From the NCBI GenBank assembly GCA_017428525.1, contig JAFRQQ010000018.1, forward strand, positions 78,300 through 142,299: 64,000 nt of DNA, read 5' to 3'. The position numbers and the translations under genes are program-made. Shown one piece after another: positions 9,383 to 50,355 of the stretch (positions are counted from its first letter, which is position 1; every line of letters starts with the position of its first letter). The notes under the pieces are model-generated. The model saw only the letters and a program-made list of their open reading frames with translations, was not told the origin of the DNA and ran no database searches. Source of the DNA: Clostridia bacterium. GTDB lineage: Bacteria > Bacillota > Clostridia > Oscillospirales > Acutalibacteraceae.

Positions 9383-9390
9383 CAGTAGGT

Positions 9391-9552
9391 AGATAGAGGC
9401 GCGGCGCGCAAAAGTAGCTCCGGCGGCATCGGGAATCGGGCCGGATGGAAAGGGTTCGCCGCCGAGGTGCATGCCTGCCCGCCCGGGGCGCGCGTGTGCC
9501 GGGCCGCAGCGAAAGACGCTGCGGACTGTCACGGATCTGTGGAGCGCTATCG
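9391..9552 (+). ncRNA. Lysine riboswitch (L-box)
   Basis: The leader carries the conserved L-box elements in order: GATAGAGGCGCG at the 5' side of P1/P2, AAAGTAGCTC, GGAAAGGGTTCGCCGCCGAG (the family's most diagnostic block), ACTGTCAC, and the closing GGAGCGCTATC. GATAG (9392-9396) pairs with CTATC (9547-9551) to form P1. A terminator hairpin begins 27 bases later, so lysine binding should promote premature termination. The regulated gene encodes an NhaC-type carrier, a known L-box target class that probably imports lysine. Confidence 0.92.
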
Positions 9553-9578
9553 AAATCGAACCTGACAGGGTTATTTTT

Positions 9579-9629: not shown

Positions 9630-11567
9630 ATGAAAAACAAGAGAAGGCTGGTCGCGCTGCTGACTGCCTGCCTGCTGCTCGTTTCGTTCTGCGCGTTCTC
9701 CGCGCTGGCGGAGCCGGAGGAAGCGGCCATGACGGAAGTCGTCACCGACGTCAATCCCGAAATCGCGCCTGCTGCTGCGCCCGGAAGCGAAACGCCGATG
9801 CTGCTTGCAGCGATGCCGGACGAAGCGGAAAAAGCCGCCGACACGGCGGATGCGGCGGCAGCTGAGGACGTTGCGGTCCTCACCGTCGGCGCGGAAGAAG
9901 AAGCAGAAGAAGCTGCGGCCGACCTGACCGACGCGGATGCTGCGCAGGAATATGTGGACAGCTACGCTGACAACCTCGAGAACGACCCCGACTTTGAGAC
10001 AAATATCCAGACCGCGATCGCTACGGTACGTGAGTCGGTCAAGTCCTATGCGACGGTGCTCTCGCTTCTGCCCGCCATCATCGCCATCCTGCTCGCGCTG
10101 ATCACCAAGGAGGTCTATTCCTCCCTGATCATCGGCATCATCGTCGGCGGCGTCATCTATGCCGGCGCCAACTTCCGCGGCATCATGGTGCATGTGGTGC
10201 AGGACGGCTTCATTGCCAGCGTTGCGGATTCCTACAACATCGGCATCATCATCTTCCTCGTGCTGCTCGGCGCGCTGGTCGCCATGATGAACAAGGCCGG
10301 CGGCTCCGCTGCATTCGGCCGCTGGGCGACCAAGCACATCAAGACCCGCACCGGCGCGCAGCTGGCAACCATCCTGCTCGGCGTGCTGATTTTCGTGGAT
10401 GACTATTTCAACTGCCTGACCGTCGGCTCCGTCATGCGTCCCGTCACAGACGGCCACAAGGTCTCCCGCGCAAAGCTTGCCTACCTGATCGACGCCACGG
10501 CGGCGCCGGTGTGCATCATCGCGCCGATCTCCTCGTGGGCGGCGGCGGTGGCCGGCTTTGCAAAGAGCGCGGGTGAAGCCAACGGCATCCGGCTCTTTAT
10601 CCGCGCGATCCCCTTCAACTTCTATGCGCTGCTCACGATCGTGATGATGATCGTGCTCGCGGTCAGCAAATTCGACTACGGCCCGATGAAAAAGCATGAG
10701 CGCAACGCCATTGACAACAACGACCTCTTCACCACCGGCACCAAACAGGCCGTGGAAAAGATGGAAGTCAACGAAAAAGGCCGCGTAATCGACCTGATCC
10801 TGCCCGTGATCATCCTGATCGCTTCCTGCGTTGTGGGCATGATCTATTCCGGCGGCTTCTTCGGCGGCGACAACGATAAGAATTTCATCGGCGCATTCTC
10901 CGATTCCGACGCTTCCGTCGGTCTCGCGCTCGGCGCGGCGTTCACCATCGTTGTGGTCACGATCTATTTCCTGCTGCGCCGCGTGCTGAAATTCAAGGAT
11001 CTCATGGAATGCCTGCCCGACGGCTTCAAGGCCATGGTGCCCGCGATCATGATCCTTGCCTGCGCATGGACCCTCAAGGCCATGACCGATTCCCTCGGCG
11101 CGAAGATCTTCATCTCCCAGCTGATCGAAGGCACGGCGGGCTCCTTCCAGATGTTCCTGCCGGCGATCATCTTCGCCATCGCGGTCGGTCTCTCCTTCGC
11201 CACCGGCACCTCCTGGGGCACCTTCGGCATCCTGATCCCCATCGTGCTCAGCGTCTTCCAGGCGAATAATCCGCTGACGATCATCGCCATCTCCGCCTGC
11301 ATGGCCGGCGCGGTCTGCGGCGACCACTGCTCCCCGATTTCGGATACGACGATCATGTCCTCCGCCGGCGCGCAGTGCGATCATATCAACCACGTTTCCA
11401 CGCAGCTGCCCTATGCGCTGACCGTGGCGGGCGTTTCGTTCGTGACCTATATCCTCGCGGGCGTGCTTGCCGGCACGGGGCTTGCCGTCATCGCGCTGCC
11501 GGTCGGCATCGTTCTGATGATCGGCACGCTGCTGATCGTCAGAGGCGCAACCGCCAAGAAAGCATAA
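9630..11567 (+). CDS. NhaC-family carrier, probable lysine transporter, with secreted acidic N-terminal extension
   Basis: A 645-residue member of the NhaC antiporter superfamily. The membrane core begins near residue 142 (SLLPAIIAILLALI) and contains the family motifs IFVDDYFNCLTVGSVMRP, LIDATAAPVCIIAPISSW and GDHCSPISDTT. The lysine riboswitch upstream points to lysine uptake rather than only Na+/H+ exchange. What is odd is the N-terminus: a signal-peptide-like segment (residues 1-27, ending SALA) followed by ~110 Ala/Glu/Asp-rich residues before the first core helix. Most NhaC proteins begin directly with the core. If cleaved, the acidic region would lie outside the cell. The ATG follows AGGAGGAATATCC. 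Confidence 0.85.
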   Translation: MKNKRRLVALLTACLLLVSFCAFSALAEPEEAAMTEVVTDVNPEIAPAAAPGSETPMLLAAMPDEAEKAADTADAAAAEDVAVLTVGAEEEAEEAAADLTDADAAQEYVDSYADNLENDPDFETNIQTAIATVRESVKSYATVLSLLPAIIAILLALITKEVYSSLIIGIIVGGVIYAGANFRGIMVHVVQDGFIASVADSYNIGIIIFLVLLGALVAMMNKAGGSAAFGRWATKHIKTRTGAQLATILLGVLIFVDDYFNCLTVGSVMRPVTDGHKVSRAKLAYLIDATAAPVCIIAPISSWAAAVAGFAKSAGEANGIRLFIRAIPFNFYALLTIVMMIVLAVSKFDYGPMKKHERNAIDNNDLFTTGTKQAVEKMEVNEKGRVIDLILPVIILIASCVVGMIYSGGFFGGDNDKNFIGAFSDSDASVGLALGAAFTIVVVTIYFLLRRVLKFKDLMECLPDGFKAMVPAIMILACAWTLKAMTDSLGAKIFISQLIEGTAGSFQMFLPAIIFAIAVGLSFATGTSWGTFGILIPIVLSVFQANNPLTIIAISACMAGAVCGDHCSPISDTTIMSSAGAQCDHINHVSTQLPYALTVAGVSFVTYILAGVLAGTGLAVIALPVGIVLMIGTLLIVRGATAKKA

Positions 11568-35044: not shown

Positions 35045-37009
35045 TCAGTCGATCAATTGAAACGTCATCGGTTTCCCGGCTTCCAGTGGCGTTTCCGTTT
35101 TGCCGTCGAAAAACACCCCGCCGGGCACGGTGGCGGTCACCGTCACGGTCGGCCGTTGATACGTCAGCCGCACCTCGCCCGCGCCGACGGGCACGGTCGC
35201 GTCAAACGACTGCCAGCTTCCCGGCTGCGGCGCAACACGGAAGGCGCTGCCGCCGACGCCGGTCGGCCGCACGCCCGCCACATAGCGGCAAAGCAGCAGG
35301 ATCGGCCCGCAGCCCCAGGCGTGGCAGAGCGATTTGCCGAAGGGCGCGCCGTACATGGCATAATGCGCCGCGCCGGACTGCGTCGGGTCGAACGCTTCCC
35401 AGACGGCGGTCGCGCCGGCCTGCAGCATCCCGCCCCAATAGGAAAGGATATAGGCCTGCGCCGCGGCAATTTTGCCGGCCTCGCACAGCGCAAGCAGTTC
35501 ATAGAGCTTGAAATACGGCGTTGTGATCGCCGGAAGCGCCGGATTCAGCAGCGCGTTTTCGATCACCCGCCGCTTCTGCGCGCCCTCCACCAGTTCATAT
35601 AAAACGGCGAAGCTGTTGGTCTGCCGGGTGACAAAGCGCCGGCCGGAGGAGAAGGAATCCACAAACGCGCCCTTTTCCTCATCCCAGAAATCCTTCAGAA
35701 TGCGTTCCTTCAGCGCCGCGGCGGCCGCGCTGCTGCCGTCCGGCTCATCCATGACCCGGGAGAGCGCCGCCATGGCAAGGTGGGTTTTCCAGAGCACGAT
35801 CTGCTCGAAGCAGACGGGATCCTCCTTGTCGAGCTCGCCCCAGTCCACAAAAATCCAGTCGCCCTGCCGCCGGACCGCATAGCCGTTTTCGTCCAGCCGG
35901 GAAACCAGAAACGCATACAGCGCCTTGACGTTTTCCCAGACCTGCCGCACAAAGGCGCGGCGCCCGGTGGCTGCGTAATGCTCCCAAAGGGAAATGATCA
36001 GAAACGCGGTATAATCGTTGATGGTATTGATATGCCGCCGATAGGGCGGCTTGCCGAGCAGGGCTGTGATCGTGCGCTCCGTGACGGACGGATCATTGTA
36101 AAGATACCGCGCGATCATGAAAGACTGATACGCGTCTCCCGACCAGACCCAGCGGTCGCGCTTGATGCCGTCCAGGAAGAATTCCCGCGTATTCAGGTGG
36201 AACGTGCGCACGCAAAGCGCCCAGATTTCATTGAGCGTCGGCACATCGGACGCAAAGGATGCTTTGTCCTCGATCGGCAGATACTCCTCACGCGCCGTGA
36301 GCGCGGTCTCGGCTGCCCGGTCGCCGCAGACGGCGATATAGCGGAAGGCCCGCGCGGGCCGCGTCGCTTCGTCCCGGTCCGTCAGCGTTTCCCGTATAAT
36401 TGCATGCGCCGGGTCCAGCGCCTCTGCTCGGCTTTCCCCGTAAACCAGCTGCACCGACGCGCCGGCGGGCAGCGTGACCTCCGCCGGTCCGAATGCCTCC
36501 TGCCCGAAATCGTAAAGCACGCCGTTTGCAATCGGTTCAACGGAAACCGGCGAGAGCGCGCGGTAAGCGAACGGAAACACGGCGGGATTATCCGCGGCGG
36601 AGCAAAACGCAGGCGCGCAGGCTGCCGGAACCGGCTGCGCGTCATAGCGTTCGGCCATCCAGCTTTCGTCCGTCACAAGCAGCTCGGAATCGATAAAGAG
36701 CGCGGGAAAGGCGTCAAAATCAAAGAGCTCCACCGCAAGATCGCAGCGGCCCGCTTGCACCGGGATCGGCGCGTTGACGGGATACAGCTGCGCCCCGAGG
36801 CGCACCATGCCCCTGCCGCGGGTCACGGCGGTGAAAACGCCGTCGCGCTGCACCGTGAAGCTTTTCAGAAACCGCACGCTGACCTCCGGCCGGCTGACGT
36901 GCCAGACGCAGGGATAATCGCAACCCAGCTCCTGCCGCCGGAAGGACAGCAGCATATGATGATAGATCTCAAATTCGCCCGGATACCAGATCCACTTTGC
37001 CTGTTTCAC
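35045..37009 (-). CDS. GH78-like alpha-L-rhamnosidase, cytosolic
   Basis: A 654-residue protein. It has an N-terminal beta-rich region (AKWIWYPGEFEIYHH) and an (alpha/alpha)6 catalytic domain with FFLDGIKRDRWVWSGDAYQS, the GH78 block carrying acidic catalytic residues. Also present are QGDWIFVDWGELD and a C-terminal beta-sandwich. No signal peptide, so it acts on imported rhamnosides. The start is taken as the GTG at 37009, preceded by GGGAGGAAACT; 11 upstream codons lack a site. A strong promoter lies 75 bases upstream, so it is probably the first gene of the long leftward run. Confidence 0.8.
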   Translation of the reverse strand: MKQAKWIWYPGEFEIYHHMLLSFRRQELGCDYPCVWHVSRPEVSVRFLKSFTVQRDGVFTAVTRGRGMVRLGAQLYPVNAPIPVQAGRCDLAVELFDFDAFPALFIDSELLVTDESWMAERYDAQPVPAACAPAFCSAADNPAVFPFAYRALSPVSVEPIANGVLYDFGQEAFGPAEVTLPAGASVQLVYGESRAEALDPAHAIIRETLTDRDEATRPARAFRYIAVCGDRAAETALTAREEYLPIEDKASFASDVPTLNEIWALCVRTFHLNTREFFLDGIKRDRWVWSGDAYQSFMIARYLYNDPSVTERTITALLGKPPYRRHINTINDYTAFLIISLWEHYAATGRRAFVRQVWENVKALYAFLVSRLDENGYAVRRQGDWIFVDWGELDKEDPVCFEQIVLWKTHLAMAALSRVMDEPDGSSAAAAALKERILKDFWDEEKGAFVDSFSSGRRFVTRQTNSFAVLYELVEGAQKRRVIENALLNPALPAITTPYFKLYELLALCEAGKIAAAQAYILSYWGGMLQAGATAVWEAFDPTQSGAAHYAMYGAPFGKSLCHAWGCGPILLLCRYVAGVRPTGVGGSAFRVAPQPGSWQSFDATVPVGAGEVRLTYQRPTVTVTATVPGGVFFDGKTETPLEAGKPMTFQLID

Positions 37010-37084
37010 AGTTTCCTCCCGCACTGCGGCGCCGCCGCGCAAATCGACAGCCGCCGCGCAAAACCCATAGATTCATCCATGATA

Positions 37085-37113: not shown

Positions 37114-37153
37114 TCTTTTTTTATATAAAGTTGATAGATTCTTATATTTGAGA

Positions 37154-37187
37154 TAAAAAAATACAGCCGGCGCGGGTTTCCGGCTGT
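37154..37187 (-). terminator. Second terminator after the RiPP-like operon
   Basis: On the minus strand ACAGCCGG and CCGGCTGT (37180-37187 with 37163-37170) form a stem with a nine-base loop, followed by ATTTTTTTA. Confidence 0.85.
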
Positions 37188-37226
37188 CCGCCACGGGGCG
37201 TGTGCGCTGCGCGGCGTTTCGGGCGC

Positions 37227-37273
37227 AAAAAAGCCGGGCTTTCAAATCGTGAACGATGAAAGCATCCGGCTTT
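37227..37273 (-). terminator. First terminator after the RiPP-like operon
   Basis: A long hairpin on the minus strand (AAAGCCGG ... CCGGCTTTTTT, with inner pairing GCTTTCA/TGAAAGC-like) begins seven bases after the ABC exporter stop and ends in six Ts. Confidence 0.88.
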
Positions 37274-37279
37274 GGTGTA

Positions 37280-39001
37280 TTATTCAGTTGCAGCGGCGTC
37301 CGCTGCGCATTCCCGGCTGTATTCAAAGCCGTGGGGCGTCACGCGGATGATCTGATCGGCATATTTGAGCGCCGCGTGCCGGTGCGTCACGCACAGGACG
37401 GTGGGGTGATGCGGCAGGGCGGCGATGGAGGTCAGGATCCGCTTTTCCGAATCGTGATCCAGCGCCGAGGTCGCCTCATCCAGGATCAGCACCGCCGGCT
37501 GCGTCATCAGCGCGCGGGCGATGGAAATGCGCTGTGCCTGCCCGGTGGACAGACCGGCGTTGCGCTCGCCGATGCGGGAGTGGATGCCGTGCGGCATCGC
37601 GTCCACGAAATCCAGCGCGTCCGCAAGGCGCAGCGCCTCGCGCGCCTGCTCCTCATCCGCGTTGTCAACGCCGAAGCAGACGTTGTCCAGGATCGTGCCG
37701 CTGAAGAGCGTGTTGCCCTGCGGCACATAGCCCATCCTGCGCCGCAAGGCGCGGCCGGCAGGGTAGGACTTGCCGTCGGGCGTGATGTATGCGATCTCGC
37801 CGGTCTGCGGCGTAAGCAGATGCATCAGCAGGTGCAGGAGCGTGGTCTTGCCGCCGCCCGAGGGGCCGACGATGACCGCGATCTCGCCCGGCTCTATGTC
37901 ACAATGAAAATGATTGATCACCTTTTCGTCGCGGCCGGGGTACTGGAAGTTCAGATCCCGCGCCACGATGCGGAAGGCGTCGCCTTCCGGCGGCTCCCCG
38001 TCCTCCATCTCGCCGGTGTCGCCGATAAACGTCACCTCATCCAGCTTGCCGGCCGAAACGAGGGTGCGCACGAAGGCGGGCAGCGCGGAGGCAAAGCGGG
38101 AGACCGGGCCCTGGATATAGCCCTCGAGCGCGATCAGCATCGACAGCGTGCCGTAGGTGACGACGCCCCGGTGCAGATTCATCAGCGACCAGCCGAAGAC
38201 CAGCAGGTAGCCGGCGTTGAAGAAGACGTCCATACCGGTGCCGGTGACGCAGGAGAAGCGGTTTTTCTTTCGCAGCGCATCCACCTTGGCATGATACAGC
38301 TGCTCCAGATGCGCGGACTGCGCGTCCTCCCTGCACATCGCCTTGACCACCGCCAGGTTGTTGCACAGCTCCGTCTGGAACGAGGATTCATCCACGCTCG
38401 CCTGACGCAGATCCTCCTGCAGCGGCATCATCCGCAGGCGCAGGAGCAGCATCGTGACCGCCGAGACCGCGCCGCCGGCCAGCAGAACCAGCAGGATCTC
38501 CCGGTTGACGGTGAACACGATGCAGGCGGTCACCAGCAGCTGCAGCGCCGCGCCGACCAAACCCGGGAAGACGTCGCAGGCAAAGTCGGCAATCTCGGAG
38601 GAATCGCTGGAAATGCGGGTGTTCAGATCACCCACGGACATCGAGGTGACCTTCAGCATCTGCGCCTGCAGCACGGCCTCATAGACCCGCTTGCGCACGC
38701 TGAAGGTGATCTTGACGTAATACATGGAGGTCAGATAGCCGAGAATGCCGCCGCCGATCGTCCACACGGTGAGCAGCACCGCATACAGCACGAAATGGCC
38801 AGACATATCCTCGGTGGTCGACCGGTCGATCATCTGCTTGACAAAAACGGAGAAGAAGATTCCCATCAGCATCTGCGCGATATTCAGCGCGAGGATGCCG
38901 AGAAGATAAAGCTTGAATTGTTTGACCACCCTTGAGACCCAGGAGAGCAGATAGAGATGCTCCATGAGCACGCGGAATGATTTCCGGATCCGTTCTCTCA
39001 T
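37280..39001 (-). CDS. ABC exporter of the RiPP-like cluster (fused permease and ATPase)
   Basis: A 573-residue half-transporter. Residues 1-~310 form a six-helix type IV exporter domain (LGILALNIAQMLMGIFFSVF; IGGGILGYLTSMYYVKITFS). The ATPase domain follows, with Walker A VGPSGGGKTTLLHL, signature LSTGQAQRISIARAL and Walker B AVLILDEATSALD. It lacks an N-terminal C39 peptidase, so leader removal must come from another protein. Its ATG at 39001 overlaps the kinase stop (ATGA) and is seven bases after AGGAGG. It is the last gene of the operon and the probable exporter of the modified peptide. Confidence 0.9.
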   Translation of the reverse strand: MRERIRKSFRVLMEHLYLLSWVSRVVKQFKLYLLGILALNIAQMLMGIFFSVFVKQMIDRSTTEDMSGHFVLYAVLLTVWTIGGGILGYLTSMYYVKITFSVRKRVYEAVLQAQMLKVTSMSVGDLNTRISSDSSEIADFACDVFPGLVGAALQLLVTACIVFTVNREILLVLLAGGAVSAVTMLLLRLRMMPLQEDLRQASVDESSFQTELCNNLAVVKAMCREDAQSAHLEQLYHAKVDALRKKNRFSCVTGTGMDVFFNAGYLLVFGWSLMNLHRGVVTYGTLSMLIALEGYIQGPVSRFASALPAFVRTLVSAGKLDEVTFIGDTGEMEDGEPPEGDAFRIVARDLNFQYPGRDEKVINHFHCDIEPGEIAVIVGPSGGGKTTLLHLLMHLLTPQTGEIAYITPDGKSYPAGRALRRRMGYVPQGNTLFSGTILDNVCFGVDNADEEQAREALRLADALDFVDAMPHGIHSRIGERNAGLSTGQAQRISIARALMTQPAVLILDEATSALDHDSEKRILTSIAALPHHPTVLCVTHRHAALKYADQIIRVTPHGFEYSRECAADAAATE

Positions 39002-39849
39002 GCGCATCCCTCCTCCTGCCGCATTGCGCGGCGCGCGTATGCCACAGCCACGCGGGCTGCCGCGTCCTCCATCGTGCAGGTCAGCCGCGCGCAGGGCAGC
39101 GCCTGCGCCGTCGGCGCCAGTTCGTTCATCGTGCGCCCCAGCGCGCCGGGCGTGAAATGATCCGCCACCATGCGCTGGGCCAGCAGCGCGAGCTTCTGCA
39201 GCCCGTCGACCGGTTCGGCCCGGTTTTCTTTGCCGCGCTCCAGAAAGAAGACGCCCCCGAGGGGCAGCGCCTCTGCGCGCGCAATGCCAGAGCTGCCGCA
39301 CCAGGGCAGGCCGTGCGCCGTGACCGGGCGTTCGCCGGCAATGACTGCCAGCTGATCGCCGTTGAAATCCTCCGCGCCGAACACCTTGCGCCAGAGCGCG
39401 GCGTGGGTGGTCTTGCCCGTGCCGCTCGGCGCGCTGAACGCATAGACGCGCCCGTCCAGAATGACGGAGGCGCTGTGCAGCACGTAAACGCCCCGTCGCT
39501 GCAGCAGGCAGTAAACGCTGCCCTTGATCGCGTCCATGAGCTCAAACGGCGCGGGGGCGTCGTCCTTCGCGACCGCAATGATTTCAGGCAGCGGCGCATC
39601 CGGGCGCAGGAGCGTGCCGATGATCCGCTCATCCTCGCGGTAGAGCATACGCACCGCATCCGGCCAGACGGTCACGCGTTCTTCCATTTCATAGGTTTCG
39701 CCGCCGGACCGCTGCAGGAGCTCCGCAGCCCCCAGGCGCACGCAGGCCTCCGGCGCGCCCGCAGTGAAATACGGGTGAAAGCCCGGGTCAATCCAGGCGT
39801 CCGGCACGTCCAGACCGATCCGCAGACCGGTCACGTCGATCACGCGCAC
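38998..39849 (-). CDS. HPr-kinase-like protein (RiPP-associated kinase)
   Basis: A 283-residue HprK-related kinase. The P-loop is SAPSGTGKTTHA (Lys146), preceded by VYVLHSASVILDGR with the characteristic His. Later come DFNGDQLAVIAGE and a short C-terminal helical region. It is much like the stand-alone HprK-type proteins in Firmicute lasso-peptide clusters, some of which phosphorylate the peptide's C-terminal Ser. It lacks the HPr(Ser)-specific N-terminal domain. The start is GTG, four bases after the PqqD gene; its ribosome site (GAGGA) lies inside that gene's end. The substrate is probably the adjacent precursor, by analogy. Confidence 0.75.
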   Translation of the reverse strand: MRVIDVTGLRIGLDVPDAWIDPGFHPYFTAGAPEACVRLGAAELLQRSGGETYEMEERVTVWPDAVRMLYREDERIIGTLLRPDAPLPEIIAVAKDDAPAPFELMDAIKGSVYCLLQRRGVYVLHSASVILDGRVYAFSAPSGTGKTTHAALWRKVFGAEDFNGDQLAVIAGERPVTAHGLPWCGSSGIARAEALPLGGVFFLERGKENRAEPVDGLQKLALLAQRMVADHFTPGALGRTMNELAPTAQALPCARLTCTMEDAAARVAVAYARRAMRQEEGCA

Positions 39850-39852
39850 CGC

Positions 39853-40131
39853 TCAGTCCTCGAGCAGGCGCAGTTTGCGCAGCGTGTCGCAGAACGCGCG
39901 GATCTCCGTCTCCAGCGTTGCTTGCTCGGCCGGCGATGCGGGCAGGAATTCCTCCGCCGCGCGGCGCAGCAGCGTCGCCTCGTCCGGCGCGTCCCGCAGG
40001 GCGCCGAGCACCCAGGCGGCGGTGTCGTTGAGCTGATAGACCATGCCGCCGTCGATGACCGCCTGCCCCTGCGGCAGCAGCACCTGCCGCCCGGCGATCT
40101 GTTCGAGCTGATAAGTATCGTTCAGTTTCAT
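39853..40131 (-). CDS. PqqD-family peptide-binding (RRE) protein
   Basis: A 92-residue PqqD-like RiPP recognition element. Marks are YQLEQIAGRQVLLPQGQAVI at the N-terminus and MVYQLNDTAAWVLGALRD, the winged-helix region that grips leader peptides as an extra strand. Such proteins present precursors to modifying enzymes. It starts the downstream half of the operon after the precursor's terminator and is tightly coupled to the kinase. A GGAGG ribosome site precedes it. Confidence 0.88.
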   Translation of the reverse strand: MKLNDTYQLEQIAGRQVLLPQGQAVIDGGMVYQLNDTAAWVLGALRDAPDEATLLRRAAEEFLPASPAEQATLETEIRAFCDTLRKLRLLED

Positions 40132-40157
40132 TTCATTTCCTCCGGAAAAAACCGTGT

Positions 40158-40188
40158 AAAAAAAGAATGGGACCCGTTGGAGGGTCCC
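40158..40188 (-). terminator. Intrinsic terminator between precursor and PqqD genes
   Basis: On the minus strand GGGACCC and GGGTCCC form a stem around a six-base loop, followed by ATTCTTTTTTT. It should cut transcription after the precursor and allow only partial read-through into pqqD-kinase-exporter. Confidence 0.85.
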
Positions 40189-40191
40189 TCC

Positions 40192-40235
40192 GACAGGAAG
40201 ATGGCGCGGGACTTGGCGCCCGCACCATTTCTGTC
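40192..40235 (-). repeat. Large imperfect hairpin in the precursor 3' untranslated region
   Basis: GACAG...CTGTC arms enclose further pairing (GGTGCGGG with CCCGCGCC) around a short loop, just after the precursor stop and before the terminator. It probably stabilises the precursor mRNA. Confidence 0.6.
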
Positions 40236-40259
40236 AGTTGGCGCTGAGAACAGTCTTGC

Positions 40260-40448
40260 TCAGGGATTGTGATGACCACCCTGGCCGTTGCCGTGCCAAT
40301 CACCGTGGCCCTCGCCGTGGTTGTTGCTGTTCTCATTGCCGTCGCCCCAGCGACCGTTGTTGCTGTTGTTGCCGGACTTCTTCGCGAAGACCTGCTCAGT
40401 CTCCAGCGCTGCGATCGCAGTGATCTCGGGGGTCTCAAAATTTCTCAT
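40260..40448 (-). CDS. Putative RiPP precursor peptide, Gly/Asn/His-rich
   Basis: A 62-residue peptide. The leader MRNFETPEITAIAALETEQV contains FETPEI, close to the YxxPxL motif that RRE proteins recognise in lasso leaders. After AKKSG (residue 26) the tail is low-complexity: 36 residues with 10 Gly, 10 Asn, 5 His, 2 Trp, 2 Ser and no Cys, Thr or Lys, ending GGHHNP. The start at 40448 is six bases after GGAG; the ATG four codons earlier sits on the ribosome site. It lies between the S26 peptidase and the PqqD gene, with its own hairpin and terminator. I recognise no named peptide class. Confidence 0.75.
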   Translation of the reverse strand: MRNFETPEITAIAALETEQVFAKKSGNNSNNGRWGDGNENSNNHGEGHGDWHGNGQGGHHNP

Positions 40449-40482
40449 TTTGATCTCCATCCTTTCAAAATGATTTTTCTTT

Positions 40483-40905
40483 TTATTTCTTCACAAGCTC
40501 AAGGAGCCTGCGTCGAAAGCGTTTGGTATGCGTCCAGATCAGGACGTAGACAAGATAGAAAATGTTGCGCGCGGAGAATTCCCTGCCGTTGCGGCAGATG
40601 CGGTCCGCGCGGCCGTAGACGTCGGCCAGCGGAATGCCCCGCTCGACGGAGAGATTGCCGTCCCCCATGATATCGCAGGTTCCGGCGGCTTCGTTTGTCT
40701 GCAGCACCCGGTGCACGACCAGCGTGCCGTTCGCGTCGCGATAGAACACAAGGTCGCCGGCCTTCGGCGCGCCCTGCAGCGGGCCGACCACCACGCTGTC
40801 CGTTTTGCCGTTCAAAAGCGGCAGCATGCTCGTGCCCTGCGGCGTGAGGCGGACTGTGTGCCCCTCGGCGATCAGCGCGACGGTGATGGATGCATCCTCG
40901 ATCAT
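40483..40905 (-). CDS. S24/S26-type (signal-peptidase-like) serine protease with Ser-His dyad
   Basis: A 140-residue protein with the signal peptidase I box LTPQGTSMLPLL (Ser26), then GDLVFYRDANGTLVVHRVL, where His65 replaces the usual catalytic Lys, as in SipW/ER-type signal peptidases. MGDGN supplies the conserved Asp region. A weakly hydrophobic C-terminal segment (NIFYLVYVLIWTHTKRF) may hold it at the membrane. Its start overlaps the nucleotidyltransferase stop (ATGA). It lies directly before the precursor gene, and no C39 or lasso B2 protease is present, so it is the best candidate to remove the leader. Confidence 0.82.
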   Translation of the reverse strand: MIEDASITVALIAEGHTVRLTPQGTSMLPLLNGKTDSVVVGPLQGAPKAGDLVFYRDANGTLVVHRVLQTNEAAGTCDIMGDGNLSVERGIPLADVYGRADRICRNGREFSARNIFYLVYVLIWTHTKRFRRRLLELVKK

Positions 40906-42002
40906 GCCACTTCTCCGCTGAAATCCACTTCGTAATGCCAGAGCAGGCGCATCGCCGCCCAGCCGACGAAGGTGGAAAAGGTGTATTTGTTTTTAAAGAT
41001 CCGCTTGGGCAGCCATTGATACTGGTGGAAGAATTCGCCGTCCCGCTCAATGCAGATATTCGGATAAAACTTCCAGTCGCCGGGCATCCGGCTGATATAC
41101 TGCTCCCAGTAGGTTTCCTGCCCTGCGTTGAACATGAGCCGCAGGAAGGGCTCCATGCTGCAGCCGGTCTTCTTCCAGAAATCCCGGCGCATGCCCAGAT
41201 ACTTCATGCAGAAGCACAGCAGCGCGTTGCAGATGCGGGTGAAGCGCAGCTTGCGGATCATCCGCCGGAAAGCCGCCGCGTCGATCTCCGGCGCATAGCG
41301 GTTGATGAACGCGGTCAGATCCATGAGCATATGCAGCGTCACTGTATGCACCATCAGATGCTTCCCCGCGTGATAGATCAGATAAAGCAGGTGGAGATCC
41401 GGCCTGAGCGTGTCATACCGCCCGTCCGCGGACGGCACGATCGCCTCTTCCGAAAAGCAGCCCTGCGCGCGCAGATACTTGCGCTGCCGGGCGCTCAGAC
41501 GCTGAAAATAGAGGTAATGCGCCTCGATCATCACCCCGGCGGACGTTGCGTAGGTATCCACGCCGCACTGGCCGTGATCCATGTCCCTGTCCATCGGGAT
41601 CTGCAGCTCCTCCATCATCCGGCTGAAGGCTTCCCGCTGCCTGCCGGGCACAAACAGATCGATATCTCCGCTCGTGCGCACGACGTTTGCCGGATAGCAT
41701 TCGTTGATCACCTTGCCCTTGAGTACGGCCGCTTTGATGCCGCGGCTGTGCATTTCGGCAAACAGCAGCAGCAGCGTCTGCTCAAGCGAACGGTGATACA
41801 GCAGATGCCCGAAGGCGTTCTCCGGCTTGCGAAACGGCGCGAGCGTCGGATCCTCGCAGCAGTCGATCATGCTTTCCATCCCGTGGAGATAAAACAGCTG
41901 CCGCATCATGGCGGGCTCCGCCGCGGGCAGCGGCGTGTGCTCCTGATAGAGGATGTGCCGCGCGATCGCCGTCAGGGAATTGATTTGTGCCCGATCGAGC
42001 AT
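40902..42002 (-). CDS. Nucleotidyltransferase-family protein of the RiPP-like cluster
   Basis: A 366-residue protein of the nucleotidyltransferase family found in several Firmicute RiPP clusters (NTP_transf_5 type). Key marks are AAVLKGKVINECYP (Lys95-Gly96) and RTSGDIDLFV with metal-binding Asp113 and Asp115. The remaining C-terminal half is helical. It might nucleotidylate the peptide or a partner. The start at 42002 follows CGGAGGAGG; 46 extra in-frame codons extend into the promoter region. It is the first gene of the operon, behind a TTGACA/TATGAT promoter. Confidence 0.82.
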   Translation of the reverse strand: MLDRAQINSLTAIARHILYQEHTPLPAAEPAMMRQLFYLHGMESMIDCCEDPTLAPFRKPENAFGHLLYHRSLEQTLLLLFAEMHSRGIKAAVLKGKVINECYPANVVRTSGDIDLFVPGRQREAFSRMMEELQIPMDRDMDHGQCGVDTYATSAGVMIEAHYLYFQRLSARQRKYLRAQGCFSEEAIVPSADGRYDTLRPDLHLLYLIYHAGKHLMVHTVTLHMLMDLTAFINRYAPEIDAAAFRRMIRKLRFTRICNALLCFCMKYLGMRRDFWKKTGCSMEPFLRLMFNAGQETYWEQYISRMPGDWKFYPNICIERDGEFFHQYQWLPKRIFKNKYTFSTFVGWAAMRLLWHYEVDFSGEVA

Positions 42003-42111
42003 CCGCCGGCCTCCTCCGAAGCAATCCGGCTTCCCGCAAAGGCAGGCGCCGGTTTGCGTGATTTTGCCTCCAGAAACGGCATCGTTCTGCAGTAAGCTGG
42101 AACTAACAGTT

Positions 42112-42140
42112 ATCATAACACAGCATGCAAAAGATGTCAA
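42112..42140 (-). promoter_or_regulatory. Sigma-A promoter of the RiPP-like operon
   Basis: On the minus strand TTGACA (42135-42140) and TATGAT (42112-42117) are exactly 17 bases apart. Confidence 0.85.
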
Positions 42141-47679: not shown

Positions 47680-50355
47680 ATGAAACGAATCACGGCGTGG
47701 AGCCTGCTGCCCGCGCAGCCGCTTGCGAAATTGCGGGTGCTGACTGCGATCCTGCTGTGCCTGATCACGGGCGGCAGCTTTTTCGGCAGCATCGGAGATC
47801 TATTGAGAGCGGGGAATGTCGACATGATCCGGAACAGCCACACAAAATCCTTCGCGACGGCTTATACGGCGCTCGTGCCGTATGCAAACAACGACAAGGA
47901 CCGCCTGAGCTGGAGCGAAGGCATGGTCACGGGCAACGGCGAGAACGGCGCCGTGTGCGCGGGCGCGCCCTACGGCGATACGCTCATTTATCAGAATATC
48001 AATTTTATCCTGCCCTCAAACGATCCGCGTGAAACGCCGGACGCGGTCACAGGCGAGCTGGAGCAGGCCCGGCAGTCCGTGATCCGGTTTGACGACAGCT
48101 GGGATATCAACGGCCGCGTGCCCTCCTATTTTTACTCCTTCCATCCCGGCCCCGTGCTGCGCATGGAAAGCCGGAAGCATCTGTATCACAATTATATCCG
48201 CTGGACGGATTTTGAAACCGCCGAGGTCGGCGTGCAGTACACCGATCTGAACGGGACCTGGGCGCGCACGACCTTCTCCTCCCGCGCAGACAACGTGACA
48301 ATCACGAAGATCGCCGCGTCCAGCATCGGCGCGAAGATCGATCTGACGCTCTCGCTGGACGATCTTTATTCCATGCGCGGCTTCGGCGGCGACTGCCAGA
48401 ATCTGCGCTATAAAAAGCTGGTGGACGACAGCGCGGACTGCATCGCGCTGATCGCGCATTATCCGGACTATGAAAACAGCGAGCTGCGCCGCGGCGGTTA
48501 CTGCGGCTGCATCCGGGTGCTCGTCGAGGGCGGCAAAAAGGAGCGCATCGTGCTTGCGGATTCCAATGACTCCGAAAACGTGGCAGCGGAAAAGAATCCC
48601 GCCATCCGCATCACGGACGCCGCCGCCGTTTATCTGATCGCCAAATCCGACCGCACGCATGAGATGGGCGACTACGGGGCCTTCGCCGCCGCCGATTCCT
48701 ATGCCCTGCTCGACACGCTCAAAGCGGACACCGCCGACGTGGCGGCGCGCTACACGGTCGACGGCGCATTCGATTATGATGCGGCGCTGCAGCCCCACGC
48801 CGAAAAGCAGTCCGCGCTGTTCAACGCCGTGCGGTTCGACCTGGGCGACAGCCTGCAGGAGCAGGTGGCGAACGAGCACCTGATCAAAATGCAGCAGCAG
48901 AGCGACGCGCTGCTGCCCGCCATGGTGGAGCGGGCCTACAACCAGGGCCGCTATGTGCAGATCTGCTGCGCGGGGCAGTCGTTCCCGCGTCTTTACGGCA
49001 TGTGGACCGGCGAATGGAATCCCGCCTGGCGCGGCATCTATACGATGGACGCGAACGTCAACCTGCAGGCCTCCGGCATGAACACGGGCAATATGCGCGA
49101 CGCGGGCGAGGGCTACATCCGGTTCGTGCTCAGACAGATTCCCGATTGGGAGGAGAACGCCGCGAAAACCTACGGCATGACAAACGCCATTCAGGTGCCC
49201 GTGAACACCGACGGCGACCGCGCGATGATGGTGGAATACTACAAGCCCTATCCGTTCGAATACTGGAACGCCGGCGCGAGCTGGATGCTGCTGCCGATTT
49301 TCGAATACTGGCAGTGCTACGGCAACCGGCAGATCGAATTCAACGGCGAACAGCTCGACCTGGAAAAGGATATTCTCCTGCCGCTGCTGACCAAGCAGGC
49401 AAATTTCTGGGCGCAGCTCGTCACGCCGGAATACTTCACGGACGCCGACGGCAAGGCGCGCTATGAAGCAGGCAAAACGCAGTTGAATCCGGGCGAAAAA
49501 TACCTGATCATCCCCTCCTATTCCCCCGAAAACGCGCCGCTGGGTTACAATTCGCCGATCACGGCCAACGCGACGATGGATATTTCCGCGGCGAAGGACG
49601 GCCTGCGTATGACGATCGCGATCGAAAACGCGGTCAAGGCGCCGGGCTATGAGGAACGGGTCGCCGACTGGGAGGCGCTCGCCGCGCTGCTGCCGGACTA
49701 TCAGTTCGATGAAAGCGGCGCGCTGTGCGAATGGGCGATGCAGGAATACACGGAAAACAACAAGCACCGCCACATCAGCCATCTTTACGCCGCCTGGCCG
49801 GCGATTGAAACGCAGAACGATCCGGCGCTCGCGGCCGCCTGCAATCAGGCGATCGAAAACCGCAACCGCGAAAACGCGGGCGAGGACGACACCGCCTCCC
49901 ACGGCTGGGTCCACAAGGCGCTCGTCGCCGCGCGGCTGAAAAACGCCGCCTCCGCCTGCCACTCGCTCTTTATGCTCATGGCGGATCATCTCTATTATTC
50001 GTCGCTGATGACGGATCACTATACGCACGGGAGCTGGGGCGTGTTCTGCACGGATACGGCGATCGGCACGGTCGGCGTGATCGACGAGATGCTGCTGTAT
50101 TCCGACAGCGGCGTGATCGAGGCGCTGCCCGCCCTGCCCGCAGACTGGTCCGAAGGAAGCATCGAGGGCCTGCGGGCGCGCACGAACGCCGAAGTTTCCC
50201 TGCGGTGGAACGCGGAAATCGTGACGGTCACGGTGACAAGCGACAAGGCGCAGACGATCGACATTTCCGTTTACGGCGGCGCGGCGCAGCGCGTTTCCTT
50301 TGCGGCGGGCGAAACAAAAACGCTCTCCCTGCCCATGCCGGCACGCGCGCAGTAA
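47680..50355 (+). CDS. GH95-family alpha-L-fucosidase, exported
   Basis: An 891-residue protein. Residues ~20-40 are a hydrophobic export segment (VLTAILLCLITGGSFFGSI). The body has GH95 features: the N-terminal super-sandwich (TGNGENGAVCAGAPYGDTLI), GRYVQICCAGQSFPRLYGMW in the (alpha/alpha)6 barrel, DANVNLQASGMNTGN, and HRHISHLYAAWP. The C-terminus has ALPALPADWSEGSIEGLRAR then EVSLRW. GH95 enzymes remove alpha-1,2-linked fucose (some act on L-galactose) from host or plant glycans. The upper half of the PANLQGIWN-type region is divergent (FPRLYGMW), so specificity may differ. GGAGG ribosome site. Confidence 0.82.
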   Translation: MKRITAWSLLPAQPLAKLRVLTAILLCLITGGSFFGSIGDLLRAGNVDMIRNSHTKSFATAYTALVPYANNDKDRLSWSEGMVTGNGENGAVCAGAPYGDTLIYQNINFILPSNDPRETPDAVTGELEQARQSVIRFDDSWDINGRVPSYFYSFHPGPVLRMESRKHLYHNYIRWTDFETAEVGVQYTDLNGTWARTTFSSRADNVTITKIAASSIGAKIDLTLSLDDLYSMRGFGGDCQNLRYKKLVDDSADCIALIAHYPDYENSELRRGGYCGCIRVLVEGGKKERIVLADSNDSENVAAEKNPAIRITDAAAVYLIAKSDRTHEMGDYGAFAAADSYALLDTLKADTADVAARYTVDGAFDYDAALQPHAEKQSALFNAVRFDLGDSLQEQVANEHLIKMQQQSDALLPAMVERAYNQGRYVQICCAGQSFPRLYGMWTGEWNPAWRGIYTMDANVNLQASGMNTGNMRDAGEGYIRFVLRQIPDWEENAAKTYGMTNAIQVPVNTDGDRAMMVEYYKPYPFEYWNAGASWMLLPIFEYWQCYGNRQIEFNGEQLDLEKDILLPLLTKQANFWAQLVTPEYFTDADGKARYEAGKTQLNPGEKYLIIPSYSPENAPLGYNSPITANATMDISAAKDGLRMTIAIENAVKAPGYEERVADWEALAALLPDYQFDESGALCEWAMQEYTENNKHRHISHLYAAWPAIETQNDPALAAACNQAIENRNRENAGEDDTASHGWVHKALVAARLKNAASACHSLFMLMADHLYYSSLMTDHYTHGSWGVFCTDTAIGTVGVIDEMLLYSDSGVIEALPALPADWSEGSIEGLRARTNAEVSLRWNAEIVTVTVTSDKAQTIDISVYGGAAQRVSFAAGETKTLSLPMPARAQ

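Follow-up and report, generated by a model that had tools for sequence, protein, structure and literature searches.

What does an operon make when it joins a peptide-binding protein, an HprK-like kinase and a predicted leader peptidase to a short precursor, and carries no gene for a cyclase? The question is posed by a 64,000-nucleotide stretch of the genome of a Clostridia bacterium of the Acutalibacteraceae, likely a gut inhabitant (assembly GCA_017428525.1, contig JAFRQQ010000018.1, positions 78,300 to 142,299 of the forward strand; hereafter the window). Six genes between window positions 37280 and 42140, all on the minus strand, encode in order a nucleotidyltransferase, an S26-like protease, the precursor peptide, a PqqD-family ribosomally synthesized and post-translationally modified peptide (RiPP) recognition element (RRE), an HprK-like kinase and an ATP-binding cassette (ABC) exporter. 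A first-pass annotation of this DNA had described these genes, in this order, as one operon, and gene calls and profile matches bear this out. It had further proposed a linear pathway without a cyclase, as a candidate for an undescribed system. The first part stands, with the HprK-type kinase and the S26 leader peptidase as the likely primary steps; the second does not, because the same gene set is in print as that of the linear polyphosphorylated peptides (LPPs), described from the lpp cluster of Paenibacillus alginolyticus DSM5050 (Popov et al., Nat Commun, May 2026; PMC13381572). The operon probably encodes a Clostridial version of the LPP pathway. In it the RRE would hold the precursor through an FxxP leader motif, a core serine would be phosphorylated, the leader would be cut off after Val-Phe-Ala and the core would leave through the ABC exporter. 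It is filed here as a variant of the LPP kind rather than as a proven member, since its leader departs from the LPP consensus and LPPs were compared by their published description, not by reference sequences.

According to that description, the conserved LPP set consists of a signal peptidase I (SpI), an RRE, an HprK-like kinase, an NTP transferase, an MsbA-like transporter and a precursor (PMC13381572), and each of the six has a counterpart of the same predicted function in the window operon, which likewise lacks a macrolactam cyclase and whose SpI-like peptidase has the catalytic Ser-His pair. The published kinase, LppK, adds one to four phosphates, for which core Ser3 is the only site, and LppS, an archaeal-type signal peptidase that needs its Ser and His, cuts after F-E-T with the aid of the RRE LppB (PMC13381572). 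Unmodified precursor is cut poorly, no effect of LppN could be detected in the host used for the tests, and the biological role of LPPs is given as unknown (PMC13381572). Its authors built the family on 199 signal-peptidase homologues, with 126 in the main network cluster, mostly Bacillota proteins.

The LppS-like protease of the window (40483..40905; 140 residues) has no Pfam match, and the NCBIfam model of archaeal signal peptidase I reaches it only at 2.4e-4, below its cut-off. Its assignment as an S26-type enzyme with an S26/S24 fold is supported by conserved residues, a PDB sequence search and a predicted structure. Residues G24, S26, M27, P29, H65, R66, G81 and D82 are invariant in 86 of 86 aligned sequences, the window protein included; the PDB search returns SEC11 and signal peptidases (best 5.1e-4); and the top fold matches of the model (predicted local distance difference test, pLDDT, 94.5) are LexA, SipA and SEC11 at E of about 0.001. 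The Ser-His dyad that the first-pass annotation had pointed out would be S26 and H65, which lie 39 residues apart, as do S29 and H68 of LppS. The third catalytic residue of LppS is D93, to which, judged by the published description, the invariant D82 may correspond. With the protease profile, 4169 protein clusters match at E <= 1e-8 among 6053 candidates, genomic context not considered, and Paenibacillus is absent from the names of the 120 matches listed, most of which are nameless.

The LppK-like kinase (38998..39849; 283 residues from a GTG start) was assigned by its predicted fold because the PDB sequence search with its profile was weak (best 0.005), and Pfam gives no match for the window copy. 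The model (pLDDT 94.3) has PEPCK and HprK/P folds as its structural matches, and the P-loop SGTGKTTH and D165 are conserved in relatives. A 99% identical kinase is found in a metagenome-assembled genome (MAG) from sheep duodenum, and the closest named relatives, among the matches listed, are MAGs called Clostridia bacterium. The LppN-like nucleotidyltransferase (40902..42002; 366 residues) belongs to NTP_transf_5 (PF14907, E 1.6e-26), and the active-site residues of this family (K-G, R and a D-x-D motif) are kept in 33/33 aligned sequences, the window's included; a PDB search gave nothing useful. Its start is likely the ATG at 42002, which lies behind a GGAGG and was preferred because the -35 box of the promoter-like site begins at the alternative TTG start (42140). 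The LppB-like RRE (39853..40131; 92 residues) is a PqqD-family protein (PF05402, E 2.6e-9). The LppD-like exporter (37280..39010) is predicted to be of the MsbA type, with PF00664 and PF00005 domains and a match to TIGR02203 at 3.6e-72 that stays below the family cut-off; none of its 19 Pfam matches is a C39 domain, as had been stated in the earlier annotation. Two other readings were considered and dropped: the RRE has no relative in viral contigs, which spoke against a viral source, and a PADLOC search for anti-phage defence with five of the six proteins yielded nothing beyond generic ATPase matches for the ABC protein.

The precursor (40260..40448) is 62 residues long, and its start at 40448 is backed by relatives. 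The two sole matches in a protein database search are P0105 and P0106. P0105 is encoded at locus L148, in another genome of the same genus, together with a second, tandem precursor (L148b), and locus L149 holds a near copy of the window precursor. The peptide is conserved beside the RRE in relatives, as the earlier proposal required, and the grouping of the operon genes goes beyond chance, since the precursor and all five other genes stand together in L148. The predicted leader spans residues 1-22 (F4xxP7 ... V20-F21-A22) and the predicted core residues 23-62, which begin with KKSG and are rich in Gly, Asn and His. The leaders of the window, L148 and L149 have FETP, and that of P0106 has YEKP. 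L148b shares the leader and the KKSG start and has a different Gly-Asn-His tail.

From these peptides a course of maturation can be proposed. The PqqD-type RRE would bind the FxxP motif in the leader of the precursor, a role suggested by the aromatic-xxP pattern. The HprK-like kinase would then phosphorylate Ser25, or core Ser3, which is the candidate site because no other hydroxyl residue is shared by all five cores and the core of L148b has no other Ser/Thr/Tyr; serine stands at core +3 in 5/5 close precursors, provided that the cut follows V/I-F-A. Signal peptidases prefer certain residues at positions -3 and -1. This preference, together with a V/I-x-[AST] pattern common to many leaders of related loci, points to a cut by the Ser-His enzyme after Ala22 (Val-Phe-Ala), after which the core, still linear, would leave through the ABC transporter. 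The order of these steps is likewise presumed. Both the V-x-[AST] cut and the lone core serine were picked out from the sequences before the comparison with PMC13381572.

To place the operon among its relatives, genome contigs were scanned with the kinase profile and the best 80 loci were kept. Of 300 genomes in the family to which the window belongs, 137 have a kinase match at E <= 0.001, a count that includes its own genome and in which not all are of this type. After five near-duplicates were dropped from 134 kinase loci, 129 remained, and removal of a further 34 with short flanks left 95 whose flanks reach 3 kb or more to either side. At distances of up to 3 kb from the kinase, PqqD proteins occur in 67 of these 95 loci, S26 proteases in 60, the two together in 53, ABC exporters in 40, radical-SAM-type proteins in 15 and NTP_transf_5 proteins in 12, and PqqD, S26 and kinase lie on one strand in 44 of the 53 loci that hold all three. 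The locus and its relatives suggest that the LPP kind is common in gut Clostridia (137/300 genomes, 53/95 loci and the 4169 clusters of the protease profile). In 17/129 loci the RRE and the kinase are fused, and at 11 of these a protein with a leader of the form aromatic-xxP...E[GD]V[YF] is present. A midpoint-rooted kinase tree of 136 tips clusters the window and L148 with 16 of the 17 fusion loci (support 0.992).

Several related loci deserve mention in their own right. Near PqqD-HprK fusions at L051, L054, L056, L057, L059, L060 and L066 are proteins of 116-165 residues with an aromatic-xxP...EGV[YF]A[AG]SG leader; for the two searched, from L060 and L066, neither NCBIfam nor Pfam gave a convincing family. 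The window's own genome has an RRE-kinase fusion locus on contig C15 (L036, about 228-240 kb) with an S26 protease, NTP_transf_5, ABC exporters and a leader peptide MEELTMYQSPDLVKV..., and L035 is a further kinase-RRE-S26 triad. An orphan leader-like peptide, MNKELYEVLELEVIAFEAEDVITTSPVEPTTGEFETPII, which may be processed in trans, is encoded in the window's own genome on contig C7 (L189:1501-1620), for which the searches gave neither a PqqD nor an HprK-like match. A second cluster type is seen at L037 (own genome, contig C11), L047, L162 and L171, where an HprK-like kinase and PqqD stand beside Cys-containing leader peptides that end in serine (...NVYNS, ...NVFTS, ...TAFLS and ...VVYDS), an end that would suit a kinase whose target is the C-terminal serine. 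Two of these loci, L047 and L162, carry in addition a radical-SAM-type protein no more than 3 kb away, and a similar Cys-containing leader peptide in L048 ends in Gly.

The leader pattern was also followed across loci. A permissive form was dropped as too loose, since its contrast was weak: near the kinase it was found in 39/948 cases on the same strand and 20/663 on the opposite strand, and far from it in 34/1372 and 35/1337. A tight motif occurred 15 times near and once far in 127 loci, from which L148 and L149 were left out; one of these 15 hits comes from L049, the orthologue of the window itself, and the result is partly circular because many of these loci had served to derive the motif. 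A looser form of it gave 39 near and 12 far, and another loose form 57 near and 47 far. In 40 further loci the strict pattern lay within 4 kb in nine, two of which are orthologue loci and three of which look like chance frames.

Substitution counts for the precursor are small numbers, which bears on what follows. Between the window and the first L148 copy (L148a), residues 1-26 have 11 non-synonymous changes in 61 sites and the next 26 codons one in 65.3, at a similar synonymous divergence (dS) of 0.74 in the leader part and 0.75 in the core part. By a count made by eye, the window core shares 33/40 residues with P0106. The five machinery genes have a non-synonymous divergence (dN) from L148 of 0.10-0.23, as compared to 0.005-0.047 for six flanking genes; dS is 0.46-0.57 in the operon genes and 0.15-0.40 in the flanking genes, the gene at 48016 being left out of this comparison. 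With operon dS above that of the flanks, the segment may as well have been exchanged between lineages as have changed fast.

The substitution pattern is reversed between the window and L149, where the leader part has 0/60.3 and the core 3/83.7 non-synonymous changes; conservation of the core above leader and machinery, found against L148 and not against L149, is a lead and not a proof, as it comes from L148a/P0105 and P0106. Several other results weigh against the assignment of the operon to an LPP-like pathway. PqqD, S26 or both are missing near the kinase in 42/95 loci, 16/95 have none of PqqD, S26, ABC, NTP_transf_5 or radical-SAM within 3 kb, and many kinase-PqqD-S26 triads have no recognizable adjoining precursor. 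The RRE-binding motif described for LPPs is [Y/W]xxP, as opposed to FxxP in the window, and the published leader spacing of P-9-F-x-[T/A] is replaced by P-12-V-F-A (PMC13381572). The extended LPP leader motif was found once near and four times far from the kinase in the 127 loci, and led to no precursors. Set against the shared gene set, the conserved catalytic residues and the recurrence of the precursor beside its machinery, these points leave a Clostridial variant of the LPP pathway as the probable reading.

One further proposal goes beyond this pathway rather than against it: phosphorylation may be a scaffold, with the nucleotidyltransferase or enzymes encoded elsewhere finishing a phosphoglyco- or nucleotidyl-peptide. 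By precedent from lasso peptides, the nucleotidyltransferase would add a sugar to the phosphate, as in pseudomycoidin, for which a kinase and a nucleotidyltransferase are reported to put one or two hexoses on phosphoserine (PMC8498205). The conservation of the NTP_transf_5 active-site residues speaks for such a step; its presence near only 12/95 kinases, together with the lack of a visible LppN effect in the published host (PMC13381572), speaks against it, and we consider the extension possible with the balance tilting somewhat the other way. A second alternative is leader-guided secretion without any modification of the peptide, in which RRE, S26 protease and exporter form an export route and the kinase and nucleotidyltransferase have another target or a regulatory role. 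It would account for the leader-bearing proteins of 116-165 residues, rather than small peptides, carried by relatives with RRE-kinase fusions, and it accords with the lack of detectable LppN activity in the published host. The fusions themselves, however, tie the kinase to RRE-bound substrates, and the published kinase modifies its precursor, which is cut poorly when unmodified (PMC13381572), so that this alternative appears improbable.

That the operon is a lasso peptide cluster served by a remote cyclase and B2 protease can be rejected as already contradicted. Its basis is that nucleotidyltransferases and HPr-kinase homologues are described as typical accessory genes of Firmicute lasso clusters. 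The first-pass annotation had found lasso cyclase and B2 genes absent, and for B2 this extends to the genome: the 96% complete assembly has no match to the B2 family (PF13471). No Asn_synthase occurs in the operon or its named neighbours, all PF00733 matches being on contigs C9, C14 and C2 while the window is on C13. At comparable loci the outcome is similar: in 50 genomes with related kinase loci, B2 matches at E <= 0.001 in seven, of which two reach the family cut-off, both on contigs other than that of the kinase locus. Lasso B2 is rare in the class (7/391 genomes at E <= 1e-8). The seven B2 loci hold an HprK-like protein in 6/7 (weak, 22-38 bits), NTP_transf_5 in 6/7 and S26 in 0/7, and their seven kinase matches form a separate clade of the kinase tree (support 0.982). 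The C-terminal Ser on which lasso kinases act is absent from all five precursors, which end in NP, HH, NP, KP and GN.

Transcription signals around the operon agree largely with those named in the first-pass annotation. Its upstream promoter corresponds to a promoter-like site at 42112..42140 (TTGACA-17-TATGAT, with TG ahead of the second hexamer), a consensus match only, at 11/12 positions, and one of seven such sites in the region versus 1.4 expected. Its two terminators correspond to two terminator-like hairpins with T runs at the end of the operon (37140..37285, z -4.3), which are absent from the list of a simple terminator scan that allows loops of 3-8 only. A third hairpin, between the precursor and RRE genes (40169..40188), had been overlooked; it is one of 11 terminator-like sites from that scan versus 4.7 expected, and the same stem recurs in L148. 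It is likely an attenuator, and would favour an excess of precursor transcript over machinery transcript. All three lie on the minus strand. The protease gene overlaps the nucleotidyltransferase gene by 4 nucleotides, and the exporter gene overlaps the kinase gene. Neighbours named by Pfam are phosphoesterases, GDPD, an MFS sugar transporter, glycoside hydrolases, a MatE transporter, an aldo/keto reductase and a beta-lactamase-fold hydrolase; among them is no capsule or lasso locus, two neighbours being without a Pfam match. Directly downstream lies an alpha-L-rhamnosidase gene (35045-37042) that is absent from this place in L148, where the flanks adjoin. Farther off, a lysine riboswitch (9386-9557, 88 bits) precedes a Na+/H+ antiporter family gene (9630-11567, plus strand).

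How close, then, does the operon stand to known systems? Generic RRE rules, such as that behind the antiSMASH 'RRE-containing' hits of rumen genomes (PMC13289728), would probably catch a cluster of this type under a label that says nothing of mechanism. Phosphorylated lasso peptides, as described for paeninodin and pseudomycoidin (PMC8498205), have in common with it an HPr-kinase homologue, a nucleotidyltransferase, an RRE and an exporter; the window differs by its lack of cyclase, B2 and C-terminal Ser, by its S26-type protease and by a kinase of another clade. LPPs as published (PMC13381572) share all six gene functions, a short precursor (35-200 residues in LPPs) with an aromatic-xxP leader motif, serine at core +3 under the predicted cut, and a precursor number of one to three per cluster, the window having one and L148 two. 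They differ in gene order (A-K-B-S-D-N in the published construct, N-S-A-B-K-D in the window) and in host, the species studied being Bacilli, although the mostly Bacillota data set may hold Clostridial members. Unlike LPPs, the window kinase is closest to RRE-kinase fusion proteins, the genes named around the operon form neither a capsule nor a lasso locus, and the core is conserved between species, whereas LPP C termini are highly variable. There could be a large Clostridial LPP branch with its own leader code, an aromatic-xxP followed by V/I-x-[AST] ahead of the cut, and frequent RRE-kinase fusion, secreting phosphorylated small proteins as well as peptides, of which the window product would be a fixed Gly/Asn/His-rich phosphopeptide, possibly metal-binding; its core, conserved more tightly than its machinery, would point toward one lasting extracellular job rather than a diversified antimicrobial. 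This wider picture is tentative and on the unlikely side, given the L149 comparison, the higher dS and the possible Clostridial members of the LPP data set. What the window adds to the published LPPs is a set of precursors with a different leader code and one branch with a little-changing core, and this conserved core with its single candidate phosphosite makes phosphosite, cut site and function directly testable.

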